Shown: piece after piece, positions 11,809-61,380 of the stretch | How the letters are laid out: the number at the start of each line of letters is the position of its first letter | Numbering within the stretch: position 1 is the first letter of the stretch | From: Sulfitobacter sp. HNIBRBA3233 | Lineage (GTDB): Bacteria > Pseudomonadota > Alphaproteobacteria > Rhodobacterales > Rhodobacteraceae | NCBI RefSeq assembly: GCF_040149665.1 | Contig: NZ_JBEFLP010000001.1 | Coordinates: 1,984,001-2,048,000 of the forward strand | Direction: 5' to 3' | DNA length: 64,000 nucleotides | Translations under genes and position numbers: made by a program | The notes under the pieces: model-generated | Seen by the model: the letters and a program-made list of their open reading frames with translations, nothing else | The model's database searches: none | What the model was told of the DNA's origin: nothing

Positions 11809-12252
11809 TCAGGGCAGTTTGCCGGTCAGCACGTAGCGCAGGATATCGACCACCTGCTCCGGCTCGGACGCGACCGCAAGCGCCGCGGCGTCCACCTCCT
11901 TCAGCGCATGCGCGTGATCGGGCCCGTGCAGGATCACCAGCGATTTGCCCAGTGCCGCGGCATATCCCGCGTCGAAGGCGGCATTCCACTGCTTGTACTG
12001 GTCCCCGAAGCGCACCACGACCACATCCGCCTCCTCGATGCCCTTGCGGGTACGGATCGCATTGATCTGCGCGCCCTTCCGGTCGTGCCAGAACTTGTCC
12101 GGCTCGGCCCCGAGGATCGCAACCCCGCAATCGTCACTGGCCGCGTGATCCGTCACCGGGCTGTCGAACACGACATCGAGGTCCTGCGCCCCTGCCACGA
12201 TCCGCTCGCGCCAGTCGGTGTGGATTTCACCCGAAAGATACACTTTCAACAT
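11809..12252 (-). CDS. YtoQ family protein
   Basis: A 147-residue member of the YtoQ family (MLKVYLSGEIHTDWRERI; VVVVRFGDQYKQWNAAFDAG), related in fold to nucleoside 2-deoxyribosyltransferases but without an assigned function. The ATG at 12252 is used because a good GGAGGG ribosome site precedes it. It is downstream of pheT on the same strand, and the gap between them carries the 37-bp repeated element described separately. Confidence 0.82.
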   Translation of the reverse strand: MLKVYLSGEIHTDWRERIVAGAQDLDVVFDSPVTDHAASDDCGVAILGAEPDKFWHDRKGAQINAIRTRKGIEEADVVVVRFGDQYKQWNAAFDAGYAAALGKSLVILHGPDHAHALKEVDAAALAVASEPEQVVDILRYVLTGKLP

Positions 12253-12293: not shown

Positions 12294-12330
12294 CGGGGCT
12301 TCTCCATTTTGCCAATAAACTCAATTCCGC
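12294..12330 (-). repeat. Copy A of a 37-bp repeated intergenic element
   Basis: This segment matches 22139-22175 at 32 of 37 positions. It lies between pheT and ytoQ, 41 bp upstream of the ytoQ start. The minus-strand core includes GAGTTTA and GGCAAAATGGAGAAGCCCCG. The second copy sits in the same orientation upstream of dgcA. Its nature (promoter, leader or dispersed repeat) is unknown. Confidence 0.7.
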
Positions 12331-12356
12331 GCCCGCAGCCCGCGCGACGCCCGTGA

Positions 12357-14756
12357 TTATCCCCGCAACGTCCCGCCGGTGGCTTTCGCCACTTTCTCCA
12401 CGACCCGCTGGCCGATCGCCTCGATATCCGCGTCCTTCAGCGTGGCCTCGACCGGTTGCAGACGCACCGTGATGGCGAGCGATTTCTTCCCCTCGCCAAG
12501 GCTTCCGCCGATGAATTCATCGAAGACCCGCACGTCGCTGATCAGGGTCTTGTCGGCCCCCATCGCGGCATTGACCACGGTCAGCGCCTCGACATCGGCA
12601 TCGACCACGAAAGCGAAATCGCGCTCCACCGCCTGAAGGTCGCTCAGCTTCAGCGCCGGGCGCGTGGCACCGGATTTACGCGGCAAGGGTACCTCGTCGG
12701 GATAGAGCGTGAAGGCGACCACGGGGCCCTTCACATCCATCTCGCGCAGCACCTTGGGGTGCAATTCACCGAAGACACCCAGAACCTTCTTCGGGCCGAG
12801 GCAGATTTTCCCGTGACGGCCCGGATGCCACCAGCCTTCGGCGCCGCGCATGATCTGTACTTTCGCGGGCGCGCCCATGGCCGCAAGGATCGCTTCCGCG
12901 TCCGCCTTGGCGTCGAACACATCCACCGCCCGCGAAGCCCCCAGCACATCCTTGGGGCCTGTCCGGCCCACGAGGATGCCGGTGATCAGGCTGCGCTGCT
13001 CGCCCGGCTCGCCGCCGTCGAAAACGGGGCCAAGCTCGAACAGCGCCATATCCGCCTGCCCCCGCGCCTGATTGCGCGCGGCGGCCTGCAACAGGCCCGG
13101 CAGCAGATCGGGGCGCATGTGGCTCATGTCGCTGCTGATCGGGTTTTCCAGTTGCGTCGCCTGCGTGCCGCCACCGAACAGCGCCGCCGAGGCGCTGTCG
13201 ATGAAGCTGTAGCTCACGCATTCGTGGTATCCCAGCGCCGCCGCCGTGCGCCGTGCAGAGGTCGCACGGCGCTGCGCGGGCGACAGCACGGGGCGCGGCA
13301 CCCCGTCGCTCAGACGCGGCAGGGGCCGGCCCTGCAGTTTGGTCAGCGATGCGATGCGGGCGACTTCCTCGACCAGATCGGCCTCGCCCTGCACGTCGGG
13401 GCGCCAGCTGGGCACATGGGCCATGTCGCCCTCCAGCCGGAACCCCAGCGCGGTCAGCGTCTGGCGCTGGTCGCTCTCGGGGATTTCCATCCCAACGAGG
13501 CTGATCACGCGCTTGGCATCCAGACGGTAGGCGCGCGCGGTATCGGGCACGCGGCCCGCCACGACAACCTCGGACGCCTCACCGCCCGCATGATCGAGGA
13601 TCATCCGCGTGGCATGTTCGATCCCGTAGGGCGTCCATTCCGGGTCGATCCCGCGCTCGAACCGGTAGCGCGCGTCGGAGTTGATCTTGAGCGCGCGGCC
13701 CGTGTAGGCGGTACGCACCGGATCGAAATAGGCCGCTTCGATAAAGACATTCTCGGTCTCTTCCGTCACGCCGGAGGGCAGCCCCCCCATGACGCCCGCG
13801 ATGCTTTCCACCCCGTTCGCGTCCGAGATCAGGGTCATCCCCTCGGAGAAGGTATAGTCCTTCTCGTCCAGCCCCTTGAGCGTCTCGCCGCCCTTGGCGC
13901 GGTGGACGCGCAGGGTGTTGCCCGCGATCTTGTCCGCGTCGAAGACGTGCAGGGGACGGTTGCGATCGAAGGTGAAGAAGTTCGTCACATCCACGAGAAA
14001 GCTGATCGGGCGCAGACCGATGGCACGCAGCGCATCCTGCAACCACGCGGGGCTCGGCCCGTTCTTCACACCGCGGATGACGCGCCCGTAGAACACCGGA
14101 CAGGCGTCGAGCGTATCTTCGTCGATGGTCACGCTGACCGGACAGGCAAACGCGCCCTCGACCGCGTCGCAGTCGCGTTTCTTCAGCTTGCCCAGACCCC
14201 GTGCCGCAAGATCGCGGGCGATGCCGCGCACGCCCAGCGCATCGGGCCGGTTGGGTGTGATCGCGATCTCGATCACCGGATCGACCTTGGCCGGATCATT
14301 TTCGGCCAGCCAGTCGACAAAGCTGTCGCCGACCTTGCCCGAGGGCAGTTCGATGATGCCGTCATGTTCGTCCGACAATTCCAGCTCGCGCTCGGAGGCC
14401 ATCATGCCGAAGCTCTCGATCCCGCGGATCTTGCCCACGCCGATGGTGGTGTCGATGCCCGGCACGTAGACACCCGGTTTGGCGACCACGACGGTGATCC
14501 CCTCGCGCGCGTTCGGCGCGCCGCAGATGATCTGCTGCACGCCCTCGTCGGTCTGGACCTGACAGACGCGCAGGCGGTCCGCATCGGGGTGCTTTTCGGC
14601 GCTTTCAACGTAACCGAGCGTGAAATCGGCCAGCTTCGCGCCCCGGTCCTCGACGCCTTCGACCTCGAGCCCGAGATCGGTCAGCGCATAGGTGATCTCG
14701 TCCAGCGACGCGGTGGTGTCGAGGTGATCCTTGAGCCAGGAGAGGGTGAATTTCAT
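12357..14756 (-). CDS. pheT: Phenylalanyl-tRNA synthetase beta subunit
   Basis: A 799-residue PheT of normal bacterial length. Domains in order: N-terminal methionyl-like segment (MKFTLSWLKDHLDTT), OB-fold tRNA-binding domain (about 40-150), B3/B4 editing domain, B5 domain, catalytic-like core, and C-terminal ferredoxin-fold anticodon-binding domain (from about 705). With PheS it charges tRNA-Phe. It lies 64 bp downstream of pheS on the same strand. Confidence 0.97.
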   Translation of the reverse strand: MKFTLSWLKDHLDTTASLDEITYALTDLGLEVEGVEDRGAKLADFTLGYVESAEKHPDADRLRVCQVQTDEGVQQIICGAPNAREGITVVVAKPGVYVPGIDTTIGVGKIRGIESFGMMASERELELSDEHDGIIELPSGKVGDSFVDWLAENDPAKVDPVIEIAITPNRPDALGVRGIARDLAARGLGKLKKRDCDAVEGAFACPVSVTIDEDTLDACPVFYGRVIRGVKNGPSPAWLQDALRAIGLRPISFLVDVTNFFTFDRNRPLHVFDADKIAGNTLRVHRAKGGETLKGLDEKDYTFSEGMTLISDANGVESIAGVMGGLPSGVTEETENVFIEAAYFDPVRTAYTGRALKINSDARYRFERGIDPEWTPYGIEHATRMILDHAGGEASEVVVAGRVPDTARAYRLDAKRVISLVGMEIPESDQRQTLTALGFRLEGDMAHVPSWRPDVQGEADLVEEVARIASLTKLQGRPLPRLSDGVPRPVLSPAQRRATSARRTAAALGYHECVSYSFIDSASAALFGGGTQATQLENPISSDMSHMRPDLLPGLLQAAARNQARGQADMALFELGPVFDGGEPGEQRSLITGILVGRTGPKDVLGASRAVDVFDAKADAEAILAAMGAPAKVQIMRGAEGWWHPGRHGKICLGPKKVLGVFGELHPKVLREMDVKGPVVAFTLYPDEVPLPRKSGATRPALKLSDLQAVERDFAFVVDADVEALTVVNAAMGADKTLISDVRVFDEFIGGSLGEGKKSLAITVRLQPVEATLKDADIEAIGQRVVEKVAKATGGTLRG

Positions 14757-14820
14757 TTTATTACTCCTTTGACCGGTACGAAGCCGTGCCAGACGTTTTC
14801 ACAAGCTGAAATCGCCGCTG

Positions 14821-15894
14821 TCACCTGCTCAGCCCGCTATGCAAATTCGGCTGGTCCAGTGACGCGAAGCCGTAGTGGCGCAGCCAGCGCAGGTCTGAAT
14901 CGAAGAACGCCCGCAGGTCGGGGATGCCGTATTTCAGCATCGCGATCCGGTCGATGCCCATGCCAAAGGCAAAGCCCTGCCATTCGTTGGGGTCGATCCC
15001 GCCCGCTTGCAGCACCTTGGGGTGGACCATGCCGGAGCCCAGCACTTCGAGCCAGCCGTCGCCTTCGCCGATGCGCAGCTGGCCGTCGACCCAGGAGCAC
15101 TGGATGTCGACCTCGGCCGAAGGTTCGGTGAAGGGGAAGTGCGAGGCCCGGAAGCGGGTCTTGATGCCGTCGATTTCGAAGAAGGCCGAGAAGAATTCCT
15201 CGAGCGTCCATTTCAGGTTCGCCATCGAGATGTCGCGGTCGATCGCGAGCCCTTCGACCTGATGGAACATCGGCGTGTGGGTCTGGTCGTAATCGGCGCG
15301 GTAGACACCGCCGGGGCAGATGATGCGCAGCGGCGCACCTTCGGCCTCCATCGTGCGGATCTGCACCGGGCTGGTGTGGGTGCGCAGCACGTGGGGCGGG
15401 CGGTCGTCGCCCTCGGCCCGCGCCATATAGAAGGTGTCCATCTCGGCCCGGGCGGGGTGGTGGCCGGGGATGTTGAGCGCGTCGAAGTTGTACCAGTCGG
15501 TATCGATGCGCGGGCCTTCGGCAACGGAGAAGCCCATTTCGGCGAAAATCGCGGTCAGCTCTTCGGTGACCTGGCTGACGGGGTGGATGGTGCCCGCAGG
15601 GCGCACGCGCCCCGGCAGGGTCACGTCCAGCCATTCGGCGCGCAGACGCTCGTCCAGCGCGGCATCGGCGAGCGCTGCTTTCTTGGCGGCGAGCGCGCTG
15701 TTGATCTCGTCCTTGAGCGCGTTCAGCGCGGGGCCTGCGGTCTGGCGTTCCTCGGGCGTCATCTTGCCCAGTTCGCGCATCTTCAGAGCGACTTCGCCCT
15801 TCTTGCCGACGGCGGCAAGACGGATATCCTCGAGCGCGGATTCGTCGCCCGCATCCGCAATCTGGCTGAGGTATTTCTGCTTCAGATCATCCAT
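14821..15894 (-). CDS. pheS: Phenylalanyl-tRNA synthetase alpha subunit
   Basis: A 357-residue catalytic subunit. It has an N-terminal coiled-coil (1-90), then class II motifs: [13 protein letters not shown], motif 2 around [19 protein letters not shown], and motif 3 [20 protein letters not shown]. It forms the alpha2-beta2 enzyme with PheT. Co-directional with rpmI, rplT and pyk further upstream. No phenylalanine attenuator was recognised in the 115 bp before it. Confidence 0.97.
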
Positions 15895-16009
15895 GCCCGT
15901 TTCCTCGTTTGTCCTTGGCGTTGCTAATCGCGGGTCTGTCCGATTGCAAGCGCGCTGGACAAGCCGCCCGCCCTGCCCCTAGCGTTGTACGATCCAAGGG
16001 GAGGACAGG

Positions 16010-16420
16010 ATGACAAACCACACCGGACGCTGCTACTGCGGCGAGATCACCTACAAGATTACCGGCGCGGCGCAATGGCAGGCCCAGTGCCACTGCCGCG
16101 AATGCCAGTATATCTCGGGCGGGGGGCCGAATTACTTCATGATCGTGGCGGCGGATGATTTCACCATCACCAAGGGCACGCCGACCCAGTTTGCCCGCGC
16201 CGATCTGGACAGCCCGCGCCGGCGCGATTTCTGCCCGACCTGCGGCACCCATCTGGTGACCCGCCTGCCCGACCGCCCTGCCGTGGTGGTCAAGGTCGGC
16301 ACGCTGGACGATCCGGCTGCCTATGCCGGACCGGCGGCGGCGATCTTTACCTGCGACGCGCAGCCCTATCACCGCATACCCGACGACCTGCCCGCCTTCG
16401 ACAAGCTGCCCCCGCGCTGA
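16010..16420 (+). CDS. GFA (glutathione-dependent formaldehyde-activating-like) family protein
   Basis: A 136-residue zinc protein of the GFA/CENP-V fold, with the cysteine sets CYCG (near residue 8), CHCREC (near 28) and CPTCGTH (near 80). The family was named for formaldehyde-glutathione adduct formation, but most members lack proven activity. It has GGGGAGG upstream and lies on the opposite strand inside the otherwise minus-strand pheS/rplT region. Confidence 0.83.
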   Translation: MTNHTGRCYCGEITYKITGAAQWQAQCHCRECQYISGGGPNYFMIVAADDFTITKGTPTQFARADLDSPRRRDFCPTCGTHLVTRLPDRPAVVVKVGTLDDPAAYAGPAAAIFTCDAQPYHRIPDDLPAFDKLPPR

Positions 16421-16450
16421 GATCGCGGCACACCACCCGCACCGGAAACG

Positions 16451-16483
16451 AAAAAGCCGCCCCCGAAGACCGGGAGCGGCTTT
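16451..16483 (-). terminator. Bidirectional intrinsic terminator between the GFA gene and rplT
   Basis: AAAGCCGC (16453-16460) pairs with GCGGCTTT (16476-16483), with further C/G pairing inside. On the minus strand the stem is followed by a T run. It sits between two convergent genes. Confidence 0.75.
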
Positions 16484-16505
16484 GATTTTACAGACCGGTG
16501 CCGGT

Positions 16506-16871
16506 TCAGGCGGCCAGCGCGTCCTGTGCGGACTTTACGATGGCGCCGAATGCTTCGGGCTCGTTCACGGCCAGATCGGCCAGAACCTTGCGGTCCACTT
16601 CGATCCCCGCCAGTGTCAGGCCGTTGATGAAGCGGCTGTATGTCAGCGCCTCGTCGTGGCTGCGCACGGCTGCGTTGATCCGCTGGATCCAGAGCGCGCG
16701 GAAGTTGCGCTTGCGGTTCTTGCGGTCACGGGTTGCGTATTGGTTGGCCTTGTCGACCGCCTGCGAGGCGACCTTGAAGGTGTTCTTGCGACGACCGTAG
16801 TAACCTTTGGCCGCCTTGACGATTTTCTTGTGGCGCGCGTGGGCGACTGTTCCACCTTTGGTACGGGACAT
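16506..16871 (-). CDS. rplT: 50S ribosomal protein L20
   Basis: A 121-residue basic bL20 ([40 protein letters not shown]). It is needed early in large-subunit assembly. It follows rpmI by 15 bp on the same strand, the normal order. The usual upstream partner infC is not adjacent here. Confidence 0.97.
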
Positions 16872-16886
16872 TTCAGGATCTCCTTA

Positions 16887-17087
16887 TCAGCGGTCGTAGG
16901 GCATGAAGCCCTTGATGATCTTTGCATCGGGCTCCGACAGGACTGTCGTGCCGCGTGCGTCGCGGATGAATTTCTTGCTCCGCTTGATCATGCCGTGGCG
17001 CTTGCCGGCCTGACCGCCGATGACCTTTCCGGTCGCCGAGATCTTGAAGCGCTTCTTGGCGCTCGACTTCGTCTTCATCTTGGGCAT
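16887..17087 (-). CDS. rpmI: 50S ribosomal protein L35
   Basis: A 66-residue basic bL35 ([38 protein letters not shown]). It is co-transcribed with rplT. A purine-rich AAGGAGAC site precedes the start. Confidence 0.97.
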
Positions 17088-17225
17088 TTCCGTCTCCTTG
17101 TCGTCTACGGTTTACGCACGACTCGGCATGCCACTGTCGGCCGGCCGTGCAGGAATGAGTTGGGCGTATAGGACGCGCCGCCGCGCGAGGCAAGAGCCGA
17201 TTTTGCCAGCCGCCGCCGTCCGCCG

Positions 17226-17453
17226 TCAGGGCATGTAGCGCGCGGCCACTTTCACGAAGACATCGGGGATTTCCTGAAGCGAGTAGCCGCCGGGTTTGCC
17301 CGCGATTGCGAAAACGATCAGGCCGCCCGCGATCAGGACGGTGATCGCCGAAGCCCGCGGCGCGCGCCGGTCGCTGATCGCCGACAGGATCGAGGGGATG
17401 GAAAGCGCGGCAATGATGATGCCAAGGACGAGGGCAAGATCGAGGTCCATCAC
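17226..17453 (-). CDS. Small membrane protein of unknown function
   Basis: A 75-residue protein with two hydrophobic helices, about 5-24 (LDLALVLGIIIAALSIPSIL) and 36-51 (AITVLIAGGLIVFAIA), joined by a basic loop (SDRRAPRAS), and a short soluble tail. It lies between pyk and rpmI, 29 bp after pyk on the same strand, so it is probably co-transcribed with pyk. I do not recognise a named family beyond 'small membrane protein'. Confidence 0.65.
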   Translation of the reverse strand: MMDLDLALVLGIIIAALSIPSILSAISDRRAPRASAITVLIAGGLIVFAIAGKPGGYSLQEIPDVFVKVAARYMP

Positions 17454-17482
17454 GGCACTCCGTTGGTCATATTGACCCCACG

Positions 17483-18928
17483 TTACTCTGGATCGGACGC
17501 AAAGATCAAACGCTCATCACAGGGGGCAACGCGCAGGATATTGGTGCTGCCGGGAACGTTGAAGGGCACGCCCGCCGTCACCACGACGAAATCGCGCTCT
17601 CCGGCGAAGCCCTCTTCGCGGGCGGCGCGCACGGCGCTGACCACCGCCTTCTTGAAGCGGTCCACCGTGCTGGTCACCGTGCAGTTGCACCCCCAGCTCA
17701 GCGCCAGCCGCCGGGCCGTGCTGCGCAGGGGCGTCAGCGCGATGATCGGCACGCGGGGCCGCTCGCGCGCGGTCAGCAAAGCGGTGGTGCCCGACTGGGT
17801 AAAGCAGCAGATGGCCGCGATATCGGTGGTCTCGGCGATCTCGCGCGCGGCGGCCACGATGGCATCGGCGACCGAGGTCAGACCCTCTGTGCGGCTCGAT
17901 TCGATGATCTGGCGGTAGGTCGGATCCTGTTCGACCTCGGTGGCGACGCGGTCCATGGTCTGCACGGCCTCGACCGGATAGCTGCCGGCGGCGGATTCGG
18001 CGGACAGCATGACCGCATCCGCCCCCTCGTAGATGGCCGTGGCAACGTCGGAGACTTCCGCGCGGGTGGGCATCGGGCTTTCGATCATCGATTCCAGCAT
18101 CTGCGTCGCCACGATCACCGGCTTGCCCACCGCACGGCACCGGCGCACCAGACGCTTCTGGATCGGCGGCACCGCCTGCACGGGCAGCTCCACCCCCAGA
18201 TCGCCGCGGGCGATCATGATCCCGTCGGACACGGCCAGAATGTCGTCGAACCGCTCAACCGCCGAGGGCTTTTCGATCTTCGACAGGATCGCCGCACGCC
18301 CTCCGGCCAGTTCGCGGGCCTCCTGCACATCCTCGGGCCGCTGTACGAAGCTGAGCGCGAGCCAGTCGACCCCGAGGTCGCAGACGAATTCCAGATCGGC
18401 GCGGTCCTTTTCGCTGAGCGCAGCCAGCGGCAGCACGACATCGGGGACGTTGACCCCCTTGCGGTTCGAGATCGTCCCGCCTGTGACCACCTCGCAATCG
18501 GCAAAATCCTTGCCGCAGTCGCGGACTTTCAGGCGTATCTTGCCGTCATTGACCAACAGGCTGGCCCCCGGTTCGAGCACCGCAAAGATTTCGGGATGGG
18601 GCAGGCAGACGCGATTCACATCCCCCGGCGTCTCGTCGAGGTCGAGCCGGAAATCTGCGCCTTCGGCAAGTTCCTCGCTTTCGTCAGCGAAGGTGCCCAC
18701 ACGCAATTTCGGCCCCTGCAAATCCGCGAGAATCGCGATGGAGGATCCGGTCTCTTCCTCGATCTGGCGGATCATGCCGTGCTTGGCGCGGATTTCCTCG
18801 TGGCTGCCGTGGCTCATGTTCAACCGGAACACATCGGCGCCCGCGTGGTGTAGCGCGCCGATCATCTCGGGCGTCTCCGAGGCGGGACCTAGGGTGGCGA
18901 CGATCTTTACATTGCGCTTGCGTCTCAT
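17483..18928 (-). CDS. pyk: Pyruvate kinase
   Basis: A 481-residue pyruvate kinase. It opens with RRKRNVKIVATLGPAS, has the catalytic lysine region (AAILSKIEKPSAV) and the Mg-binding IMIARGDLGVELP, and ends in the C-terminal allosteric domain. It converts phosphoenolpyruvate and ADP to pyruvate and ATP. The ATG at 18928 is used because the family motif starts right after it; the 65 upstream codons are not pyruvate-kinase-like. Confidence 0.96.
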   Translation of the reverse strand: MRRKRNVKIVATLGPASETPEMIGALHHAGADVFRLNMSHGSHEEIRAKHGMIRQIEEETGSSIAILADLQGPKLRVGTFADESEELAEGADFRLDLDETPGDVNRVCLPHPEIFAVLEPGASLLVNDGKIRLKVRDCGKDFADCEVVTGGTISNRKGVNVPDVVLPLAALSEKDRADLEFVCDLGVDWLALSFVQRPEDVQEARELAGGRAAILSKIEKPSAVERFDDILAVSDGIMIARGDLGVELPVQAVPPIQKRLVRRCRAVGKPVIVATQMLESMIESPMPTRAEVSDVATAIYEGADAVMLSAESAAGSYPVEAVQTMDRVATEVEQDPTYRQIIESSRTEGLTSVADAIVAAAREIAETTDIAAICCFTQSGTTALLTARERPRVPIIALTPLRSTARRLALSWGCNCTVTSTVDRFKKAVVSAVRAAREEGFAGERDFVVVTAGVPFNVPGSTNILRVAPCDERLIFASDPE

Positions 18929-19109
18929 CGGGGCAGTTCTCTCTAGTTTGTTAGCGGTCACATCACCCGCGAAGCGGCAGATTGTCCAGCCCCGCGGGGC
19001 CGCGTGACCGCAGTAAATCACGTCGCGGCAGCGGACGCACCCCCGTCGTTCGGTTGACCGCCCTTCCCGGCGCCCCCATCTTGGGCTGACATGGACAGGA
19101 GCCAACCAG

Positions 19110-19427
19110 ATGAGCACACCCACACAGCAGGAAATCGAACTTCAGGCCGCCGCCTTCCGGCGTCTGCAAAAGCACCTGATGGAAGACCGCACGGACGTGC
19201 AGAACATCGACCTGATGAACCTCGCCGGATTTTGCCGCAACTGCCTGAGCCGCTGGTATCAGGAAGCCGCCGCCGAACGCGGGATTGAGATCGGCAAGGA
19301 AGAGGCGCGCGAGCTTTTCTACGGCATGACGATGGACGAATGGAAAGCGGGCTACCAGACCGACGCCAGCGCCCCGCAGGAAGAAGCGTTCAAGAAAGCG
19401 TTCGAGGAAAACGTCGGCAAAGGCTGA
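19110..19427 (+). CDS. DUF1244 family protein
   Basis: A 105-residue protein with the DUF1244 signature: FRRLQKHLMEDRTDVQNIDLMNLAGFCRNCLSRW broken by two cysteines, then GMTMDEWKAGYQ. Family members are small helical proteins with no established function. AGGAG precedes the ATG. It is convergent with the D-amino-acid transaminase gene. Confidence 0.85.
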   Translation: MSTPTQQEIELQAAAFRRLQKHLMEDRTDVQNIDLMNLAGFCRNCLSRWYQEAAAERGIEIGKEEARELFYGMTMDEWKAGYQTDASAPQEEAFKKAFEENVGKG

Positions 19428-19428
19428 A

Positions 19429-19480
19429 GCGCCGCGCCTCACCTGGCGCCTTGCCTGCAGAGCGTTTTGGGGCGCGGCGC
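19429..19480. terminator. Possible terminator hairpin between convergent genes
   Basis: A perfect 10-bp stem, GCGCCGCGCC (19429-19438) with GGCGCGGCGC (19471-19480), has a 32-base loop. It lies just after the DUF1244 stop. There is no T run and the loop is long, so this is weak as an intrinsic terminator. I see nothing else in the gap to 19617. Confidence 0.35.
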
Positions 19481-19617
19481 GTCTCGCCGGACTGTCTGAC
19501 GCCAGCGGCGACGCCACAGGCGCCTGACACTCTGGATCACCGACTTGGATGTCGCGCGGACCGCCAGCGCGGGAGGACACCGAGCGGGCCGCGCGCCCGC
19601 TCGGGCAGCAAGTGGGG

Positions 19618-20478
19618 TCAGACAGCCGCCTTGCGCATCTCGTCGAGATAGATCTCGCGCAGGCGCAGCGCCACGCGTCCGGGCGTGCCATCGCCCAGCG
19701 ACACGCCGTCGATCTCGACCACCGGCATCACGAAGGCCGACGCGGATGTGGTGAAGGCCTCGTCCGCCGCCTGCGCCTCTTCGATGGTAAAGCTGCGCTC
19801 TTCGACCTCCATCTGCGCCTCGCGGGCAAAGCGCAGGACGGCGGCGCGGGTGATCCCGTGCAGGATCTCGTTGCCCAAGTGCCGCGTGATGATCCGGTTG
19901 CCCTTGACGATATAGGCGTTGTTGGAGGTTCCTTCGGTCACGAAACCGTCCTCGACCATCCACGCATCGTCGCAGCCCGCCTTCTTCGCCATCATCTTGC
20001 CCATGGACGGATACAGCAGCTGCACCGTCTTGATGTCGCGGCGGCCCCAGCGGATATCCTCGATGCTGATGACCTTGGCGCCTTTCTTGGCCGCCGGGCT
20101 GTCGGCCAGACCGGGTTTGTTCTGGGTGAACAGCACGATGGTCGGCTCGGTATCGTCAGCGGGAAAGACGAAATCGCGGTCGCCATCCGATCCGCGCGTG
20201 ATCTGCAGATACACCAGACCCTCATCGATCTCGTTCAGGCGCACCAGTTCGCGGTGCACCTCCAGCAGGTCTTCCTTGGAAATCGGGTTCTTCATGTCCA
20301 GCTCGTTCAACGACCGGCTGAGCCGCACCGCATGGCCGTCGAAGTCGATCAGCTTGCCGCCCAGCACGCTTGTCACCTCATAGACGCCATCGGCCATGAG
20401 AAAGCCCCGGTCAAAGATCGAAACCTTGGCCTCGGTTTCGGGAAGGTAGTCGCCGTTCACGTAAACTGTGCGGGTCAT
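19618..20478 (-). CDS. dat: D-amino-acid transaminase
   Basis: A 286-residue class IV aminotransferase of the D-alanine aminotransferase type. The N-terminus is VYVNGDYLPETEAKVSIFDRGFLMADGVYEV; the PLP lysine lies in the RRDIKTVQLLYP segment; GFVTEGTSNNAYIV and GITRAAVL are family motifs. It transfers amino groups between D-amino acids and keto acids, for example D-alanine and 2-oxoglutarate to D-glutamate. It lies downstream of dgcN, dgcA and an exonuclease gene on the same strand, which supports D-amino-acid metabolism for the group. Confidence 0.88.
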   Translation of the reverse strand: MTRTVYVNGDYLPETEAKVSIFDRGFLMADGVYEVTSVLGGKLIDFDGHAVRLSRSLNELDMKNPISKEDLLEVHRELVRLNEIDEGLVYLQITRGSDGDRDFVFPADDTEPTIVLFTQNKPGLADSPAAKKGAKVISIEDIRWGRRDIKTVQLLYPSMGKMMAKKAGCDDAWMVEDGFVTEGTSNNAYIVKGNRIITRHLGNEILHGITRAAVLRFAREAQMEVEERSFTIEEAQAADEAFTTSASAFVMPVVEIDGVSLGDGTPGRVALRLREIYLDEMRKAAV

Positions 20479-20494
20479 CGTGGTTTCCTTTTCG

Positions 20495-21115
20495 TCATGT
20501 CGGGGCCAGCCCGGTGATATCGGCGGCGCTCAGCCTGCCGGTGTTCAAAAGGTGGCTCAGCGCGGTGGCCACAGCCGCCGCATCGGCGCGCGCGTCATGG
20601 GCAGGGCCCGGCGCGTCGAGCCCGAAATGGCCACAGATCGTATTGCTGCGCAAGCGGTGCACCGTCTCCAGATCCTCGCCCGCCGTAACCAGAAGCGGCG
20701 GCGCGTTGCGAAACTGCGCCGCGGGGATCGGGCTGGTGAGCCCCTGCACGAACAGCGAGGGCGCAAAGGTCAGAAGCTCGTCCTTGCCCCAGCCGAGCAA
20801 AAGGCTGCCGCGCGCGAAATCCGACAGGGCGGCAAGGGCGTCGGCCAGCGCCAGCCCCTCGGCCTGCAACTGCGCATCGGTGATCCCGCAGAGCCGCGTC
20901 AGCAGCGGGTCGACCGGCGCGATCTGCCCGTCGCGGTCGCGGGGCGACACATACCAGCCCACGGGGTCCGAAACCGCGAAGGGCGCGCCGAGCGACAGGT
21001 GGACGGCGCCGATCTGCACGCACAGCGGGTCGGGATCGTCCGGCCCGCACCAGAATCGCGCCGGCGCACCGGGTGCCGTCAGGAATTCGCAGTCATAGAC
21101 CGTGACGAAATCCAT
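20495..21115 (-). CDS. DEDDh-type 3'-5' exonuclease-like protein
   Basis: A 206-residue protein with an exonuclease-like fold: first acidic motif TVYDCEF near residue 8, and C-terminal HDARADAAAVATAL carrying the histidine and last aspartate of the DEDDh class. It might act on RNA or DNA ends. The ATG at 21115 is separated from the dgcA stop by one base, and the dat start is 16 bp downstream, so it sits inside the D-amino-acid group with no obvious link to it. Confidence 0.65.
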   Translation of the reverse strand: MDFVTVYDCEFLTAPGAPARFWCGPDDPDPLCVQIGAVHLSLGAPFAVSDPVGWYVSPRDRDGQIAPVDPLLTRLCGITDAQLQAEGLALADALAALSDFARGSLLLGWGKDELLTFAPSLFVQGLTSPIPAAQFRNAPPLLVTAGEDLETVHRLRSNTICGHFGLDAPGPAHDARADAAAVATALSHLLNTGRLSAADITGLAPT

Positions 21116-21116
21116 C

Positions 21117-22082
21117 TCACCCCCAAAGCGCCGCAACCGGCGGATGCACACCGTCGCCGTCGAACACCAGCGGCGGGTCGCGGTCCTCGGCCAGCAACAG
21201 CGGACCGTCCAGGTCAACGACTTTCGCGCCCTGCGCGACCAGTGTCGCGGGTGCCATCGCCAGCGACGACCCGACCATGCAGCCGACCATCACGTCATAT
21301 CCCTCGGCCAGCGCCGCCTTTCGCAAGGCCAGCGCCTCGGTCAGGCCCCCCGTCTTGTCGAGCTTGATGTTGACCACATCATACTTGCCCTTCAGCCCGG
21401 CAAGACTGTTGCGGTCGTGGCAGCTTTCGTCGGCGCAGACAGGCACCGGACGCTCGATGCCCAGCAGCGCATCATCCTCCCCCGCAGGCAGCGGCTGTTC
21501 GACCAGCGCAACCCCCAGGCGCACAAGGTGCGGCGCAAGGTCGGCATAGACATCGGCGCTCCACCCCTCGTTCGCGTCGACGATGATGGTGCTTTGCGGT
21601 GCGCCCGCGCGCACGGCCTCGAGACGCGGCATGTCGTCGGGGGTGCCCAGCTTGATCTTCAACAGCGGCCGATGGCTGTGTTTCGCGGCCTGCGCACGCA
21701 TCGCATCCGGCGTATCCAGAGACAGCGTATAGGCTGTCACCTCCGGCCCCGGCGCGTCCAGCCCGGCCAGGTCCCAGACCCGCTTGCCCGCGCGCTTGGC
21801 CTCCAGATCCCACAGCGCGCAATCGACGGCGTTGCGCGCCGCCCCCGCTGACAACAGGTCATAGAGCGCGGCACGGTCCAGATCCGACGGCAGGCTCTCG
21901 ATCTCGGCGGTCACACTCTCCAGCGTCTCGTCGTAGCGCGCGTAGGGCACGCATTCGCCCCAACCGCTTGCCGTGCCATCGCTGATGCGCACTGTCAGCA
22001 CCTTCGCCTCGCTGCGCGATCCGCGCGAGATGGTGAACACCTGCGCCAGCTTGAACACGTCACGGGTGACTTCGATCCGCAT
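21117..22082 (-). CDS. dgcA: Enolase-superfamily epimerase, probable N-acetyl-D-glutamate racemase DgcA
   Basis: A 321-residue enolase-superfamily protein of the dipeptide-epimerase group. It has the catalytic KxK pair (LLKIKLGT), metal ligands in IIVDANEGWS, VEQPLP and ADESCH, and the second-face lysine in VNIKLDKTGG. It is paired with the DUF1611 protein DgcN, the partnership described for marine bacteria in which DgcN acetylates D-glutamate and DgcA converts the product to N-acetyl-L-glutamate. The ATG at 22082 follows GAAGGAG. L-Ala-D/L-Glu epimerase activity is the alternative. Confidence 0.82.
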   Translation of the reverse strand: MRIEVTRDVFKLAQVFTISRGSRSEAKVLTVRISDGTASGWGECVPYARYDETLESVTAEIESLPSDLDRAALYDLLSAGAARNAVDCALWDLEAKRAGKRVWDLAGLDAPGPEVTAYTLSLDTPDAMRAQAAKHSHRPLLKIKLGTPDDMPRLEAVRAGAPQSTIIVDANEGWSADVYADLAPHLVRLGVALVEQPLPAGEDDALLGIERPVPVCADESCHDRNSLAGLKGKYDVVNIKLDKTGGLTEALALRKAALAEGYDVMVGCMVGSSLAMAPATLVAQGAKVVDLDGPLLLAEDRDPPLVFDGDGVHPPVAALWG

Positions 22083-22138
22083 CACTTTCTCCTTCGCCGC
22101 CCCGATCACCGGTCCGCCGAGGTCAGGCGCACCGGCGT

Positions 22139-22175
22139 CGGGGCTTCTCTATTTTGCCCTTAAACTCGATCCCGC
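22139..22175 (-). repeat. Copy B of a 37-bp repeated intergenic element
   Basis: This matches 12294-12330 at 32 of 37 positions. It lies in the 114-bp gap between dgcN and dgcA, 56 bp upstream of the dgcA start, in the same orientation relative to the downstream gene as copy A. Confidence 0.7.
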
Positions 22176-22196: not shown

Positions 22197-23198
22197 TCAA
22201 AGCGCTTCCAACGCCTCCGCCAGACGCTCGGCCCCGTGGCGGAACGGATCCACCGCGGGCAGGCCCATTTCTTCCTCGACCTTGGCAAGATAGGCGCGCG
22301 CATCCGCATCGCTCATGTGCTGGGTATTGACCGAAACGCCCACGACCTCGCAGGCGGGGTTCGCCACCCGCGCCAGCGTCAGCGCCACATCGCGCACCGC
22401 CTCGAGGCTCGGAGGGGTATAATCGGGCAGACCCCGCATATGGCTGCGCGTGGGCTCATGGCACAGGATCAGCGCATCGGGCTGCCCGCCGTGGATCAGC
22501 GCCAGCGTCACCCCCGAATAGCTGACGTGAAACAGCGATCCCTGCCCCTCGATGATGTCCCAGTGGTCGTCGTCGTTGTCGGGCGTAAGGTATTCGATCG
22601 AACCGGCCATGAAATCCGCGATCACCGCATCCAGCGGCACGCCCTCGCCGGTGATCAGGATGCCGGTCTGGCCGGTCGCGCGAAAGCTCGACTTGAGGCC
22701 GCGCTCCTTCATCGCGGCGTCCAGCGCCAGCGCCGTATACATCTTGCCCACCGAACAATCTGTGCCCACGGCCAGCACCCGCTTGCCGCTGCGCTTCACG
22801 CCGTTGGCGATGGGGTATTTTACCGACGGGATGCGCACATCGTGCAGCGTCCGCCCGTTGGCCGCCGCCGCCGCGGCCAGATCGGCCTCGTCGCGCAACA
22901 GGTTGTGCAGCCCCGAGGCCACGTCGAATCCCATCTCGACCGCCTCGATCAGGACGGATTTCCACGCCGCCGAGATCATGCCGCCGCGGTTCGCCACGCC
23001 GATCACCAGCGTCTTGGCACCGGCGTCCCATGCCTCGGCGAGGGTCATGTCGGTCAGGCCGACGTCGGCCTTGCAGCCCTCCATCCGGAACTGGCCGACG
23101 GCGTTGTCGGGGCGCCAGTCCTTGATCCCCTGCGCGACTTTCGCGGCAAGCTGGTCCGGCGCATCGCCGAGGAAGAGCAAATAGGGTGTCTTGATCAT
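22197..23198 (-). CDS. dgcN: DUF1611 protein, probable D-glutamate N-acetyltransferase DgcN
   Basis: A 333-residue DUF1611 protein. It has a P-loop-like segment, AVGTDCSVGKMYTALAL (about 146-162), and downstream IIEGQGSLFH and LCHEPTRSHMRG. DUF1611 proteins of this type have been assigned as D-glutamate N-acetyltransferases acting before DgcA. The ATG at 23198 is used; upstream codons are unlike the family. It is the first gene of the minus-strand group dgcN-dgcA-exonuclease-dat and is divergent from L-malyl-CoA lyase. The function rests on family and partner, not on a visible acetyl-CoA motif. Confidence 0.8.
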   Translation of the reverse strand: MIKTPYLLFLGDAPDQLAAKVAQGIKDWRPDNAVGQFRMEGCKADVGLTDMTLAEAWDAGAKTLVIGVANRGGMISAAWKSVLIEAVEMGFDVASGLHNLLRDEADLAAAAAANGRTLHDVRIPSVKYPIANGVKRSGKRVLAVGTDCSVGKMYTALALDAAMKERGLKSSFRATGQTGILITGEGVPLDAVIADFMAGSIEYLTPDNDDDHWDIIEGQGSLFHVSYSGVTLALIHGGQPDALILCHEPTRSHMRGLPDYTPPSLEAVRDVALTLARVANPACEVVGVSVNTQHMSDADARAYLAKVEEEMGLPAVDPFRHGAERLAEALEAL

Positions 23199-23344
23199 GG
23201 TCCGAATCTCCGCGCGTATTTCAGTCGCGCGCAGATTGCGCGATGTTGCACGCAATTCAATCGCATATCCCGCGCCACAGGCAGACTGGTTGCAAGAAAC
23301 CTGCGCAACGGCGTCGATCTGTGCATAATTTGTGCGCGAGCTGT

Positions 23345-30406: not shown

Positions 30407-30482
30407 GGGGCATTAGCTCAGCTGGGAGAGCGCCTGCATGGCATGCAGGAGGTCAGCGGTTCGATCCCGCTATGCTCCACCA
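30407..30482 (+). tRNA. tRNA-Ala (anticodon GGC)
   Basis: A 76-nt cloverleaf with acceptor stem GGGGCAT/ATGCTCC, D-arm TAGCTCAGCTGGGAGAGC, anticodon stem CCTGC/GCAGG with loop ATGGCAT (anticodon GGC), T-arm GCGGTTCGATCCCGC, discriminator A and an encoded CCA. The sequence from its variable region onward, together with the flank, is duplicated 172 bp downstream. Confidence 0.95.
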
Positions 30483-30784
30483 AGGGTTTTTCGCAAAGCG
30501 AAAAGCCCGTCGTCCCGACAGTGTCTTCGCACAGCGAAGATCACGAGAGGGACAAACGTTTCCCAACAAAACCAGTGACTTTCACACGCTGACCGACGCG
30601 CGTCGGCTGTGCCGCCACGCTGGGTCAGCGGTTCGATCCCGCTATGCTCCACCAAGGGTTTTTCGCAAAGCGAAAAGCCCGTCGTCCCGACAGTGTCTTC
30701 GCGCAGCGAAGATCACGAGAGGGACAAACGGTTCCCAACAAAAACAGTAACTTTCATACGCTGACCGACGCGCGTCGGCTGTGC
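30451..30784 (+). repeat. Tandem duplication of the tRNA-Ala 3' half plus downstream flank
   Basis: Two units of about 162 bp, 30451-30612 and 30623-30784, are offset by 172 bp and differ at only a handful of positions. Each holds the tRNA 3' segment, a hairpin TTTTCGC-AAA-GCGAAAA, a second hairpin CTTCGC-NNN-GCGAAG, a long-range GTCCC/GGGAC pair and the perfect palindrome CCGACGCGCGTCGG. No open reading frame in the region looks real. The rest of the gap, to 30935, holds one further hairpin. Confidence 0.9.
30623..30654 (+). pseudogene. Truncated 3' half of tRNA-Ala
   Basis: These 32 bases are identical to the last 32 bases of tRNA-Ala(GGC) at 30451-30482, including the T-arm, acceptor 3' strand and CCA. 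There is no 5' half, so no functional tRNA can form. It is the front end of the second repeat unit. Confidence 0.9.
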
Positions 30785-58480: not shown

Positions 58481-61295
58481 GCAACCCGACCTGGATCTCA
58501 GCCCCGACGTCTCGGACGAGGTGCGCAAGACGACCTGCTACATGTGCGCCTGCCGCTGCGGCATCAACGTACATATGAAAAAAGGCAAGGTCGCCTATAT
58601 CGAGGGCAACCGCGATCATCCCGTCAATCAGGGCGTACTCTGCGCCAAGGGCAGCGCGGGCATCATGCAGCACAACGCGCCCTCGCGCCTGCGCGCGCCG
58701 ATGAAACGGGTGGGGGATCGCGGCGAGGGCAAGTTCGAGGAAATCAGCTGGGACGAGGCCTATGACATCGCGGCGGGCTGGCTGAAACCCATCCGCGAAA
58801 ACGATCCGTCGAAGCTCGCGTTCTTTACCGGCCGCGACCAGTCACAAAGCTTTACCTCGCTCTGGGCGCAGAGCTTTGGCACCCCGAATTACGCCGCCCA
58901 CGGCGGCTTTTGTTCCGTGAACATGGCGGCAGCGGGCATCTACACCATGGGCGGCGCATTCTGGGAGTTCGGCCAGCCCGATTGGGACCATACCAAGCTT
59001 TTCATGCTGTTCGGCGTGGCCGAGGACCACGACAGCAACCCCATCAAGATGGGGATCGGAAAGATCAAGGCGCGCGGCGCGCGGGTGATCGGGGTGAACC
59101 CGATCCGCACCGGCTATAACGCCGTCGCCGACGATTGGGTCGGGATCACGCCCGGCACGGACGGGCTGTTCATCCTGTCGATGATCCATTGCCTGATGAA
59201 AGCCGGGAAGATCGATTTCCACTACCTCGCGCAGTATACGGACGCAGCAGTGTTGCTGAACGGCGATGAAAAATCGCCCGACTACGGGCTGAAGCTGCGC
59301 GACGAACAGGGCAAGGATCTGGTCATTGACCGCACCACCGGCAAACCTGCGCCCTTCGACCGCAAGGGCGTGCGCCCCGATCTGACCGCCACCCACCGCG
59401 CGCAGGGGGTCACTCACCGCCCGGTGTTCCACCGGATGCTCGAGATGTATCTCGACCCGCGTTACGCGCCCGAAGCGGTCGCCGAGACCGTCGGCATCTC
59501 CGCCGCGCGAATCCGCAGGCTGGCCGCGGAACTTGCCCGCGTGGCATTCGACGAGGCGTTCGAGCTGGATCAGGAATGGACCGATTTCCGCGGCGAGACC
59601 CACCAGAAGATGACAGGCCGGCCCGTGAGCTTTCATGCGATGCGCGGCATCTCGGCCCATGCCAACGGCTTCCAGACTTGCCGCGCCCTGCACACGCTGC
59701 AAATCCTGCTCGGCACGGTCGAGGTGCCCGGCGGCTTCCGGTTCAAACCGCCCTACCCCAAGCCCGCGACCGCCCACCCGCGCCCGCATACCGGCATGAC
59801 CCCGGGGGCGCCGCTGAACGGGCCGCATCTGGGGTTCGTTCACGGGCCCGAAGATCTGGCTCTGAAAGAGGACGGCAGCCCCGCCCGCATCGACAAGGCA
59901 TTCACCTGGGAAAACCCGATGTCGGTGCACGGCCTGATGCACATGGTCATCTCCAACGCACACGCGGGCGATCCCTACAAGATCGACACGCTTTTCATGT
60001 ATATGGCGAACATGTCGTGGAATTCATCGATGAACACCACGGGCGTTCAGGAGATGCTGACCGACCGCGACGAGAGCGGCGAATACGTCATTCCGCACAT
60101 CATCTACTCCGATGCCTACAGCTCGGAAATGGTGGCCTACGCCGATCTCATCCTGCCGGACACCACCTATCTGGAACGACACGACTGCATCTCCCTGCTC
60201 GACCGGCCGATCTGCGAGGCCGATGCCGTGGCCGACGCGATCCGCTGGCCGGTGGTCGAACCGGATCGCAACGTCAAGGGGTTCCAGTCCGCCCTGTGCG
60301 ATCTGGGGGCCAGACTGGGCCTGCCTGCATTCGTCAACGCGGACGGCAGCCAGAAATACGCCGACTACGCCGATTACATCATTCACCACGAACGCCGTCC
60401 CGGCATCGGCCCGCTTGCCGGGTGGCGCACGGGGGAGGCGGGGCTGCAGGCCGGGCGCGGCGGCGTCAACGAAAGCCAGATCGAGAATTACATCGCCAAC
60501 GGCGGATTTTTCGCAGAACACATTCCGGATGCCGCGAAATACTACAAACCGTGGAACATGGCCTATCAGGGCTGGGCCGTTAAGATGGGTCTCTTCGACG
60601 CGCCGCAGCCCTATCTCTTCACGCTCTATTCCGAACCCCTTCGGCGCTTCCAGCGCGCCGCCGAAGGCCACGGCGACCGCCAGCCCCCCGACCATCTGCG
60701 GGCGCGGATCATCGAGAAGATGTCGCCGCTGCCGATCTGGTACGAGACCGACCAGCACGGCAACGACGGCTACACGATCAGCGCGCTCACCCAACGCCCG
60801 ATGGCGATGTACCACTCCTGGGGCAGCCAGAACGCGTGGCTGCGCCAGTTGCACGGGCGCAACCCGATGTATCTGCCAACGAAACTGATGCGCGCCAACG
60901 ATCTCGCCGATGGCGACTGGGCCGAGATTACCTCGCCCCACGGCAGCATCACCGTGCCGGTCATGGAAATGGCCGCCCTGAACGAAAACACGATCTGGAC
61001 ATGGAACGCCATCGGCAAGCGCAAGGGCGCATGGGCGCTGGACAAGGACGCGCCGGAGGCGACCAGGGGCTTCCTGCTCAACCATCTGATCCACGAGCTG
61101 CTGCCGCCCAGGGGCGACGGGTTGCGCTGGGCCAATTCCGATCCGATCACCGGTCAGGCCGCGTGGTTTGACCTCAAGGTCGCTCTGCGCAAGGTTGCGG
61201 CCCCCGCTGACGGCCAGAGCAGGCCCGCGATGCCGCCGCTGGCGTCGCCCGTGGGCACCGGCCCCGACAAACTCGCATGGAAGGTCGGCGAATGA
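58470..61295 (+). CDS. soeA: Sulfite dehydrogenase molybdopterin subunit SoeA
   Basis: A 941-residue molybdopterin oxidoreductase. An N-terminal [4Fe-4S] motif CYMCACRCG with the fourth cysteine in GVLCAKGS binds the proximal cluster; the molybdopterin domain and a C-terminal dinucleotide-binding domain (about 790-900) follow. No Tat signal is present, as expected for the cytoplasmic SoeABC type. It oxidises sulfite to sulfate. Placement after xsc and ackA, and before soeB and soeC, supports this over other members of the family. Confidence 0.9.
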   Translation: MSHKQPDLDLSPDVSDEVRKTTCYMCACRCGINVHMKKGKVAYIEGNRDHPVNQGVLCAKGSAGIMQHNAPSRLRAPMKRVGDRGEGKFEEISWDEAYDIAAGWLKPIRENDPSKLAFFTGRDQSQSFTSLWAQSFGTPNYAAHGGFCSVNMAAAGIYTMGGAFWEFGQPDWDHTKLFMLFGVAEDHDSNPIKMGIGKIKARGARVIGVNPIRTGYNAVADDWVGITPGTDGLFILSMIHCLMKAGKIDFHYLAQYTDAAVLLNGDEKSPDYGLKLRDEQGKDLVIDRTTGKPAPFDRKGVRPDLTATHRAQGVTHRPVFHRMLEMYLDPRYAPEAVAETVGISAARIRRLAAELARVAFDEAFELDQEWTDFRGETHQKMTGRPVSFHAMRGISAHANGFQTCRALHTLQILLGTVEVPGGFRFKPPYPKPATAHPRPHTGMTPGAPLNGPHLGFVHGPEDLALKEDGSPARIDKAFTWENPMSVHGLMHMVISNAHAGDPYKIDTLFMYMANMSWNSSMNTTGVQEMLTDRDESGEYVIPHIIYSDAYSSEMVAYADLILPDTTYLERHDCISLLDRPICEADAVADAIRWPVVEPDRNVKGFQSALCDLGARLGLPAFVNADGSQKYADYADYIIHHERRPGIGPLAGWRTGEAGLQAGRGGVNESQIENYIANGGFFAEHIPDAAKYYKPWNMAYQGWAVKMGLFDAPQPYLFTLYSEPLRRFQRAAEGHGDRQPPDHLRARIIEKMSPLPIWYETDQHGNDGYTISALTQRPMAMYHSWGSQNAWLRQLHGRNPMYLPTKLMRANDLADGDWAEITSPHGSITVPVMEMAALNENTIWTWNAIGKRKGAWALDKDAPEATRGFLLNHLIHELLPPRGDGLRWANSDPITGQAAWFDLKVALRKVAAPADGQSRPAMPPLASPVGTGPDKLAWKVGE

Positions 61296-61380
61296 ACCAA
61301 ACCCGTCCCGCCTCCAATTTGCCGAAAAACTCCGGGGTCCGGGGCAGCGCCCCGGTCCGACGCCCGCAAGGAGCACCCGC

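Follow-up and report, generated by a model that had tools for sequence, protein, structure and literature searches.

The 64,000-nucleotide stretch of Sulfitobacter sp. HNIBRBA3233 DNA analysed here (the window; positions 1,984,001 to 2,048,000 of contig NZ_JBEFLP010000001.1, assembly GCF_040149665.1) carries, in gaps between its genes, copies of a short element that belongs to a dispersed extragenic family spelled differently in different genomes. Copy 1 occupies 12294–12330 and copy 2 occupies 22139–22175, both on the minus strand. A recount gives the agreement reported in the initial annotation of the window, 32 matching bases out of 37 with both copies pointing the same way, and beyond the 37 bp identity drops towards background (10/20 and 12/20 bases on the two sides). 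In copy 1 the 21-bp core, GAGTTTA-TT-GGCAAAATGGAG (12302–12322), is bordered by the partly conserved edges GCGGAATT upstream and AAGCCCCG downstream; in copy 2 the core GAGTTTA-AG-GGCAAAATAGAG (22147–22167) has GCGGGATC upstream and the same AAGCCCCG downstream. Copy 1 lies in the gap between pheT (12357–14756, minus strand, identified by domains) and ytoQ (11809–12252, minus strand, PF11071), with the ytoQ start, 12252, 41 bp away. Copy 2 is preceded by a DUF1611 gene (22197–23201, minus strand, start chosen by us), which we take to be dgcN, and followed by a dgcA-like gene of the enolase superfamily (21117–22082, minus strand, MR_MLE domains), whose start at 22082 lies 56 bp from the copy if the ATG that we chose is used. 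These measurements bear out the earlier placement of the pair 40–56 bp before minus-strand starts, in gaps that follow another minus-strand gene. Further copies had been missed, including one inside the window: copy 3, with one mismatch in its core (GAGTTTTTCGGCAAATTGGAG; 61312–61332, minus strand), runs antisense between two plus-strand genes; by eye judgement of their translations, the one that ends at 61295 is molybdopterin-oxidoreductase-like and the one that starts at about 61381 is 4Fe-4S-protein-like. It is accompanied at 61333–61355 (minus strand, locus L078) by a GC stem-loop, CCGGGGC-GCT-GCCCCGG, and then a second C-run, ACCCCG, which abuts the core.

The resemblance of copies 1 and 2 is neither a chance match nor the trace of a gene duplication. 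In a seeded search (exact 10-mer required) the only 37-base pairs with at least 32 matches in the window were this one and a repeat at a tRNA, and 12 dinucleotide-preserving shuffles of the window gave none. A pattern derived from the two copies, with 26 bases specified and at most 3 mismatches allowed, matches these two sites alone in the window against 0.00 expected, and 18 places genome-wide against 0 for the reversed control. The flanking genes of the two sites are unrelated, as had been noted before and as a domain search supports. Across the genome of the window (labelled G000; other G and L numbers denote sampled genomes and extracted loci) the core pattern GAGTTT-N3-GGCAAAAT-N-GAG (equivalent to GAGTTTNNNGGCAAAATNGAG) has 55 exact matches, so that the absence of further genomic copies, which the initial annotation had named as the mark of a chance pair, is clearly not what is found. 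Allowing one, two and three mismatches adds 7, 3 and 14 matches, respectively; the group with three looks random, the reversed pattern gives 0 matches, and the series 55, 7 and 3 has no tail of decay. With at most one mismatch allowed, the 3.9 Mb genome has 62 copies. Among the 64 copies that we examined of the 65 with up to two mismatches (C1:327730 was left out), core positions 0–20 are almost fixed, except for positions 7 and 8, which are free, and position 17, which is G or A; the partly conserved edges read GCGGGATT before the core and AAGC after it. The alternation at position 17 (ATG or ATA), together with AAATAAAG in another Sulfitobacter genome (G080), rules out the ATG of the core as the start of a small reading frame. 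With origin and terminus inferred by GC skew from twenty 12-kb stretches, 30 of the 46 main-contig copies with at most one mismatch point with the inferred replication fork (p = 0.054), which is too weak for a fork signal. In the region of the inferred origin, a stretch of about 520 kb (C1, approximately 2.05–2.57 Mb), picked after looking, contains just one copy, with two mismatches.

None of the 64 copies falls within a gene as called by our own simple caller, and two overlap a called start by 6 bp; 24 are in sense and 19 in antisense orientation in tandem gaps, 19 are in convergent gaps and 2 in divergent gaps. As background we used 304 kb chosen independently of the copies (the window and the twenty stretches; 92% coding and 8% non-coding by the same caller), in which gaps of at least 30 bp comprise 85 tandem, 27 convergent and 39 divergent ones. 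Divergent gaps are avoided (2/55 exact copies against 39/151 background gaps, p = 1.5e-4), and the enrichment in convergent gaps is not significant in this genome (p = 0.085). Elsewhere we find 10 convergent, 18 tandem and 3 divergent copies and 1 inside a called gene in G107 (32 of its 100 copies), 11 convergent, 17 tandem, 1 divergent and 1 undecided in G010 (30 copies), and 10 tandem, 2 convergent and 2 divergent in G196 (14 of its 52 copies), one of the last two also inside a called gene. The p-values against a gap background for G010 (0.012) and G107 (0.051) are weakened in that this background counts some loci twice and comes partly from the copies' own loci. There is no clear strand preference, as tandem gaps over the four genomes hold 46 sense and 36 antisense copies. 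Occurrence in either orientation, combined with the avoidance of divergent gaps, is not promoter-like and does not fit a purely sense RNA signal.

The comparison with G010, in which we examined 30 distinct copies of the 50 found at up to two mismatches, reveals how the element changes at fixed sites. Sixteen of these, distributed over 14 loci, have neighbouring genes in common with a G000 copy. At L010/L236 and L011-L012/L220 the shared neighbour is visible on one side only (the members of the L220 pair have an identical core, so that the choice of pairing has no effect on core counts), and L009/L231 and L068/L214, where shared genes stand in other arrangements, are excluded from the 16. Between these orthologous copies there are 3 differences in 256 comparisons at the 16 frozen core positions and 2 in 16 at position 17. 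The free spacer differs in 22 of 32 comparisons and the two dialect positions in 31 of 32; outside the core, the 8 preceding bases differ in 27/128 and further flanks in 56–73%. Within each genome the spacer stays mixed, to a lesser degree in G010, which has A at position 8 in 77%. Neither copying nor conversion explains this pattern well: a process that fixed positions 12 and 18 ought to have homogenised the spacer, 4 bases away, as well. Judged from the sequences, an in-place shift of dialect appears to fit selection by a co-evolving reader better than copying, and without such a reader it is difficult to account for in-place differences of dialect at shared sites.

Distinct spellings are found within the genus and beyond it. 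A pattern allowing several spellings matches 18 of 62 genomes of the genus; the right block reads ..GGCAAAATRGAG in G000, ..GGCCAAATGAAG in G010 and ..GGCAAAATAAAG or GAAG in G080, and four genomes (G011, G012, G066 and G077) spell it ..GGCAAAATGAAG. The order-wide pattern GAGTATTT-N(1-9)-ARAWGAAG is found in 47 genomes of the 121 sampled, spread over 33 of 58 genera; the reversed control has 7 matches in all. The guess of a dispersed repeat family in the initial annotation was therefore right as far as it goes. The highest order-wide counts are 100 (G107, the maximum in any sampled genome), 84 (G135) and 61 (G104); low counts are not all real, because three matches among the inspected loci look coding (L454, L455 and L468). 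A genus member without the G000 dialect (G013) has 10 copies by the order-wide pattern, one of them reading GAGTATTTTTGGCGAAAAGAAG. Uniformity within the genome is clear in G000 and G010, and G186 mixes spellings. That the spelling is specific to the genome, even at shared sites, suggests that something in the cell reads the element. Matches were also obtained in 57 viral contigs, all with a G+C content of about 0.3–0.4, where chance matches in AT-rich DNA are likely, and we rejected a phage origin.

The dgcA gap was also fetched by protein, independently of the element. Of the nine relatives with exact pattern matches and a fetched dgcA locus, seven show their own right block in the dgcN–dgcA gap (G010, G012, G011, G033, G019, G021 and, with the last base changed, G004). 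Conservation before both genes, proposed earlier as a check, thus has a divided outcome: a related element is present in the dgcA gap of many Sulfitobacter, and in the ytoQ gap of few of 70 genomes, where about five further gaps look related by eye (L288, L290, L310, L317 and L321). Single sites come and go, being kept among close relatives and not across Rhodobacteraceae. At one pair of loci (L334 and L340, from G012 and G077) the upstream sequence and the core are near-identical and the sequence then diverges up to the next start codon, the change setting in at the core edge.

What is the element, then? Tentatively, we favour a functional recognition site that a putative sequence-specific factor would read in trans and that would act mainly at the DNA level. 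The element opens with a left block, which is GAGTTTA in this genome and GAGTATTT in many other genera; 2–4 nt of free spacer follow, and then a right block, which is GGCAAAATGGAG in this genome and CCAAGATGAAG elsewhere. A GC stem-loop often stands directly before the left block, and the element sits between genes, mostly beside their 3' ends, in either orientation. A co-evolving reader whose preference changed would shift the dialect positions in place. Computation shows the family, its dialects, the frozen, free and shifted positions at shared sites, the placement outside genes, the absence of a clear strand preference and the stem-loops. The reader itself is inferred, as are its co-evolution with the sites, its nature as a protein (perhaps one that works together with RNA) and a role at gene borders, where the element might serve as an insulating, roadblock or nucleoid site. 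The sites of Noc, SlmA and MatP, which organise the nucleoid and chromosome, number tens per chromosome and show little regard for transcription direction. Our element is like them in both respects, but it is longer, asymmetric, extragenic and attached to a stem-loop, and its copies are also found near the terminus inferred by GC skew. Literature searches, with thin coverage of subscription journals, found no description of the element, although it is spread over the large and much-sequenced family Rhodobacteraceae; it points to a DNA- or RNA-reading factor of this family that may be retrievable with the core as bait.

Several observations weigh against such a recognition site. The reader is putative, none having been found, and its role is deduced from sequence patterns. 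As many as 44 of the 62 genomes of the genus and 74 of the 121 of the order have no match to the single pattern used, whether through other dialects or absence, and locating copies mostly by pattern biases the collection towards intact ones. In G015 and G007 the dgcA gap mismatches the few exact copies elsewhere in the same genome, and the agreement in G019 and G021 rests on one and two other copies. Several Sulfitobacter have a dgcN–dgcA gap of a few bases without the element, other relatives have other spellings there, and of 70 genomes 3, G000 included, have a match to the strict pattern before ytoQ. Two of the 46 copies in G107 and G196 lie inside a gene by our crude caller. Finally, wobble pairs and mismatch types do not discriminate which strand folds, leaving room for a role at the RNA level.

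Less probable is a selfish or mobilised extragenic repeat, similar to repetitive extragenic palindromic (REP) sequences or miniature inverted-repeat transposable elements (MITEs), which would be copied into harmless gaps and owe its placement and homogeneity to recent copying. The element resembles REPs, bacterial interspersed mosaic elements (BIMEs) and REPINs, with their REP-associated tyrosine transposases (RAYT, TnpA-REP), in being short, dispersed and extragenic, with stem-loops, inverted pairs and a genome-specific sequence, and mobility would also account for the patchy occupancy of the dgcA and ytoQ gaps and for the change of flank that sets in at the border of the core between the sister-species loci L334 and L340. 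In contrast to these systems, its conserved core is not palindromic (GAGTTTANNGGCAAAATRGAG), the stem is the variable part, and the copies inspected by eye have no constant GTAG or CGTC tag at the stem foot. A search that covered the Y1 family only found no match to PF01797 (Y1/REP-type transposase) in G000; this family is matched in 13 of the 121 genomes of the order, and of the nine with at least 25 order-wide copies only G101 and G104 have it. REP-type mobility is unlikely because there is no Y1 transposase in G000 and the dialects shift in place at shared loci. The 14 loci common to G000 and G010, the diversity of the spacer within a genome and the scarcity of decayed copies also speak against a mobile repeat. 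CGTC REPs have been reported from all alphaproteobacterial orders, according to PMC3733652, and ordinary REPs may coexist with this element.

Less likely still is an RNA element, in which the stem-loop and a single-stranded tail would give transcripts a signal for termination, processing or stability. Stems are indeed abundant: a perfect stem of at least 5 bp lies within 36 nt upstream of 25 of the 64 copies in G000, against a mean of 6.0 in mononucleotide shuffles, with 6/30 against 1.8 in G010 and 24/32 against 8.3 in G107 (wider search). The sequence of the stem varies while its pairing persists, also between the orthologues L061/L230 and L087/L213. In 36 of 41 stem-bearing copies (those left after dropping the ones without a 5-bp stem or a closing C-run) the second C-run beside the core is as long as the C-run of the stem, with a rank correlation of 0.80 between copies that are related and not independent. 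Such copies, in G107, G000 and other genomes, look as though one G-run could pair with either C-run and the two pairings were in competition. The clear signal is in the number of stems near the core; stem-loop energies in fixed windows give weak signals, and shuffled sequences fold at least as well as the core region (mean z +0.17 in G000 and +0.50 in G010). The tail stands at the ribosome-binding position before dgcA in several relatives. The suggestion of a leader element in the initial annotation does not hold in general: some copies directly precede a start codon (in the dgcA gap of relatives), but tandem gaps contain many antisense copies. The same copies set the element apart from intrinsic terminators, which it resembles in its GC stem-loops at gene ends. 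Moreover, in the copies inspected no T-run directly follows the stem, and a C-run or AT is found instead, then GAG and TTTA or TATTT, whether the copy is sense or antisense. An Rfam scan of the window at gathering score returned a tRNA only, and nothing at the element.

RNA may be involved in another way. Among close inverted pairs of the element (less than 300 bp apart), found by pattern search in the available DNA of G000, G010, G107, G196 and the G012 group, 11 of 11 are tail-to-tail and none head-to-head. One tail-to-tail core pair, present in four Sulfitobacter genomes (G000, G080, G010 and G084), encloses a small-RNA-like segment of 137–153 bp (L011:1501–1695 in G000, L220:1501–1679 in G010, and L139:2149–2331 and L188:5944–6132 in the other two). 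The segment has a TTAAC-rich start, a stem-loop of changing sequence and a 26-nt stretch identical in the four genomes but for one base in G000, after which comes a stretch resembling the right block in the local dialect (CAAAGTGGAGAAG in G000, CAAAGTGAAGAAG in G080, CCAAGTGAAG in G010 and CCAGATGAAG in G084). Its fold z-scores are -1.7 to -3.6. In G000 the segment is reversed with respect to G080 (alignment score 82 reversed and 13 direct) while the genes flanking it stay put (84% and 86% identical); judged by a single shared neighbour, its orientation in G010 agrees with G080 and that in G084 with G000. The inversion could proceed via a recombinase or via rare template switching at short inverted repeats. 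The segment is unlikely to encode a peptide because the reading frame is not kept in G080; no Rfam match at this locus reaches the gathering score, and a plasmid search with the segment gave 5 weak matches only. It is conceivable, if rather improbable, that the dialect is written in this small RNA and that an RNA-guided or RNA-containing factor reads the cores, shifts dialect by mutation of one RNA and can recombine at the cores. If the enclosed RNA did carry the specificity, this would be a new type of guided system.

More doubtful again is a putative signal for DNA uptake or transfer, kept uniform by biased recombination, as with the DNA uptake sequences (DUS) of Neisseriaceae, for which PMC3630211 documents species-level dialects of one motif in thousands of copies. 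Dialects that are highly uniform within a genome are common to both, and extragenic placement and inverted pairs would suit such a signal. Unlike DUS as described there (PMC3630211), the element is present in tens of copies (62 at up to one mismatch) and not thousands, and it consists of two blocks with a free spacer and attached stem-loops. A promoter for an alternative sigma factor, suggested by the initial annotation and consistent with the position of copies 1 and 2 before a gene start, is very improbable, since divergent gaps are avoided, 19 of the 64 copies are antisense in tandem gaps and 19 convergent, and the downstream gene is in line with the element for only 26, which is not what a promoter requires.

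Apart from the element, the window contains at 30407–30784 a tRNA-Ala gene and, 172 bp downstream, a repeat of its 3' part (96% matches, 1.9 copies), with the look of an att-type duplication.

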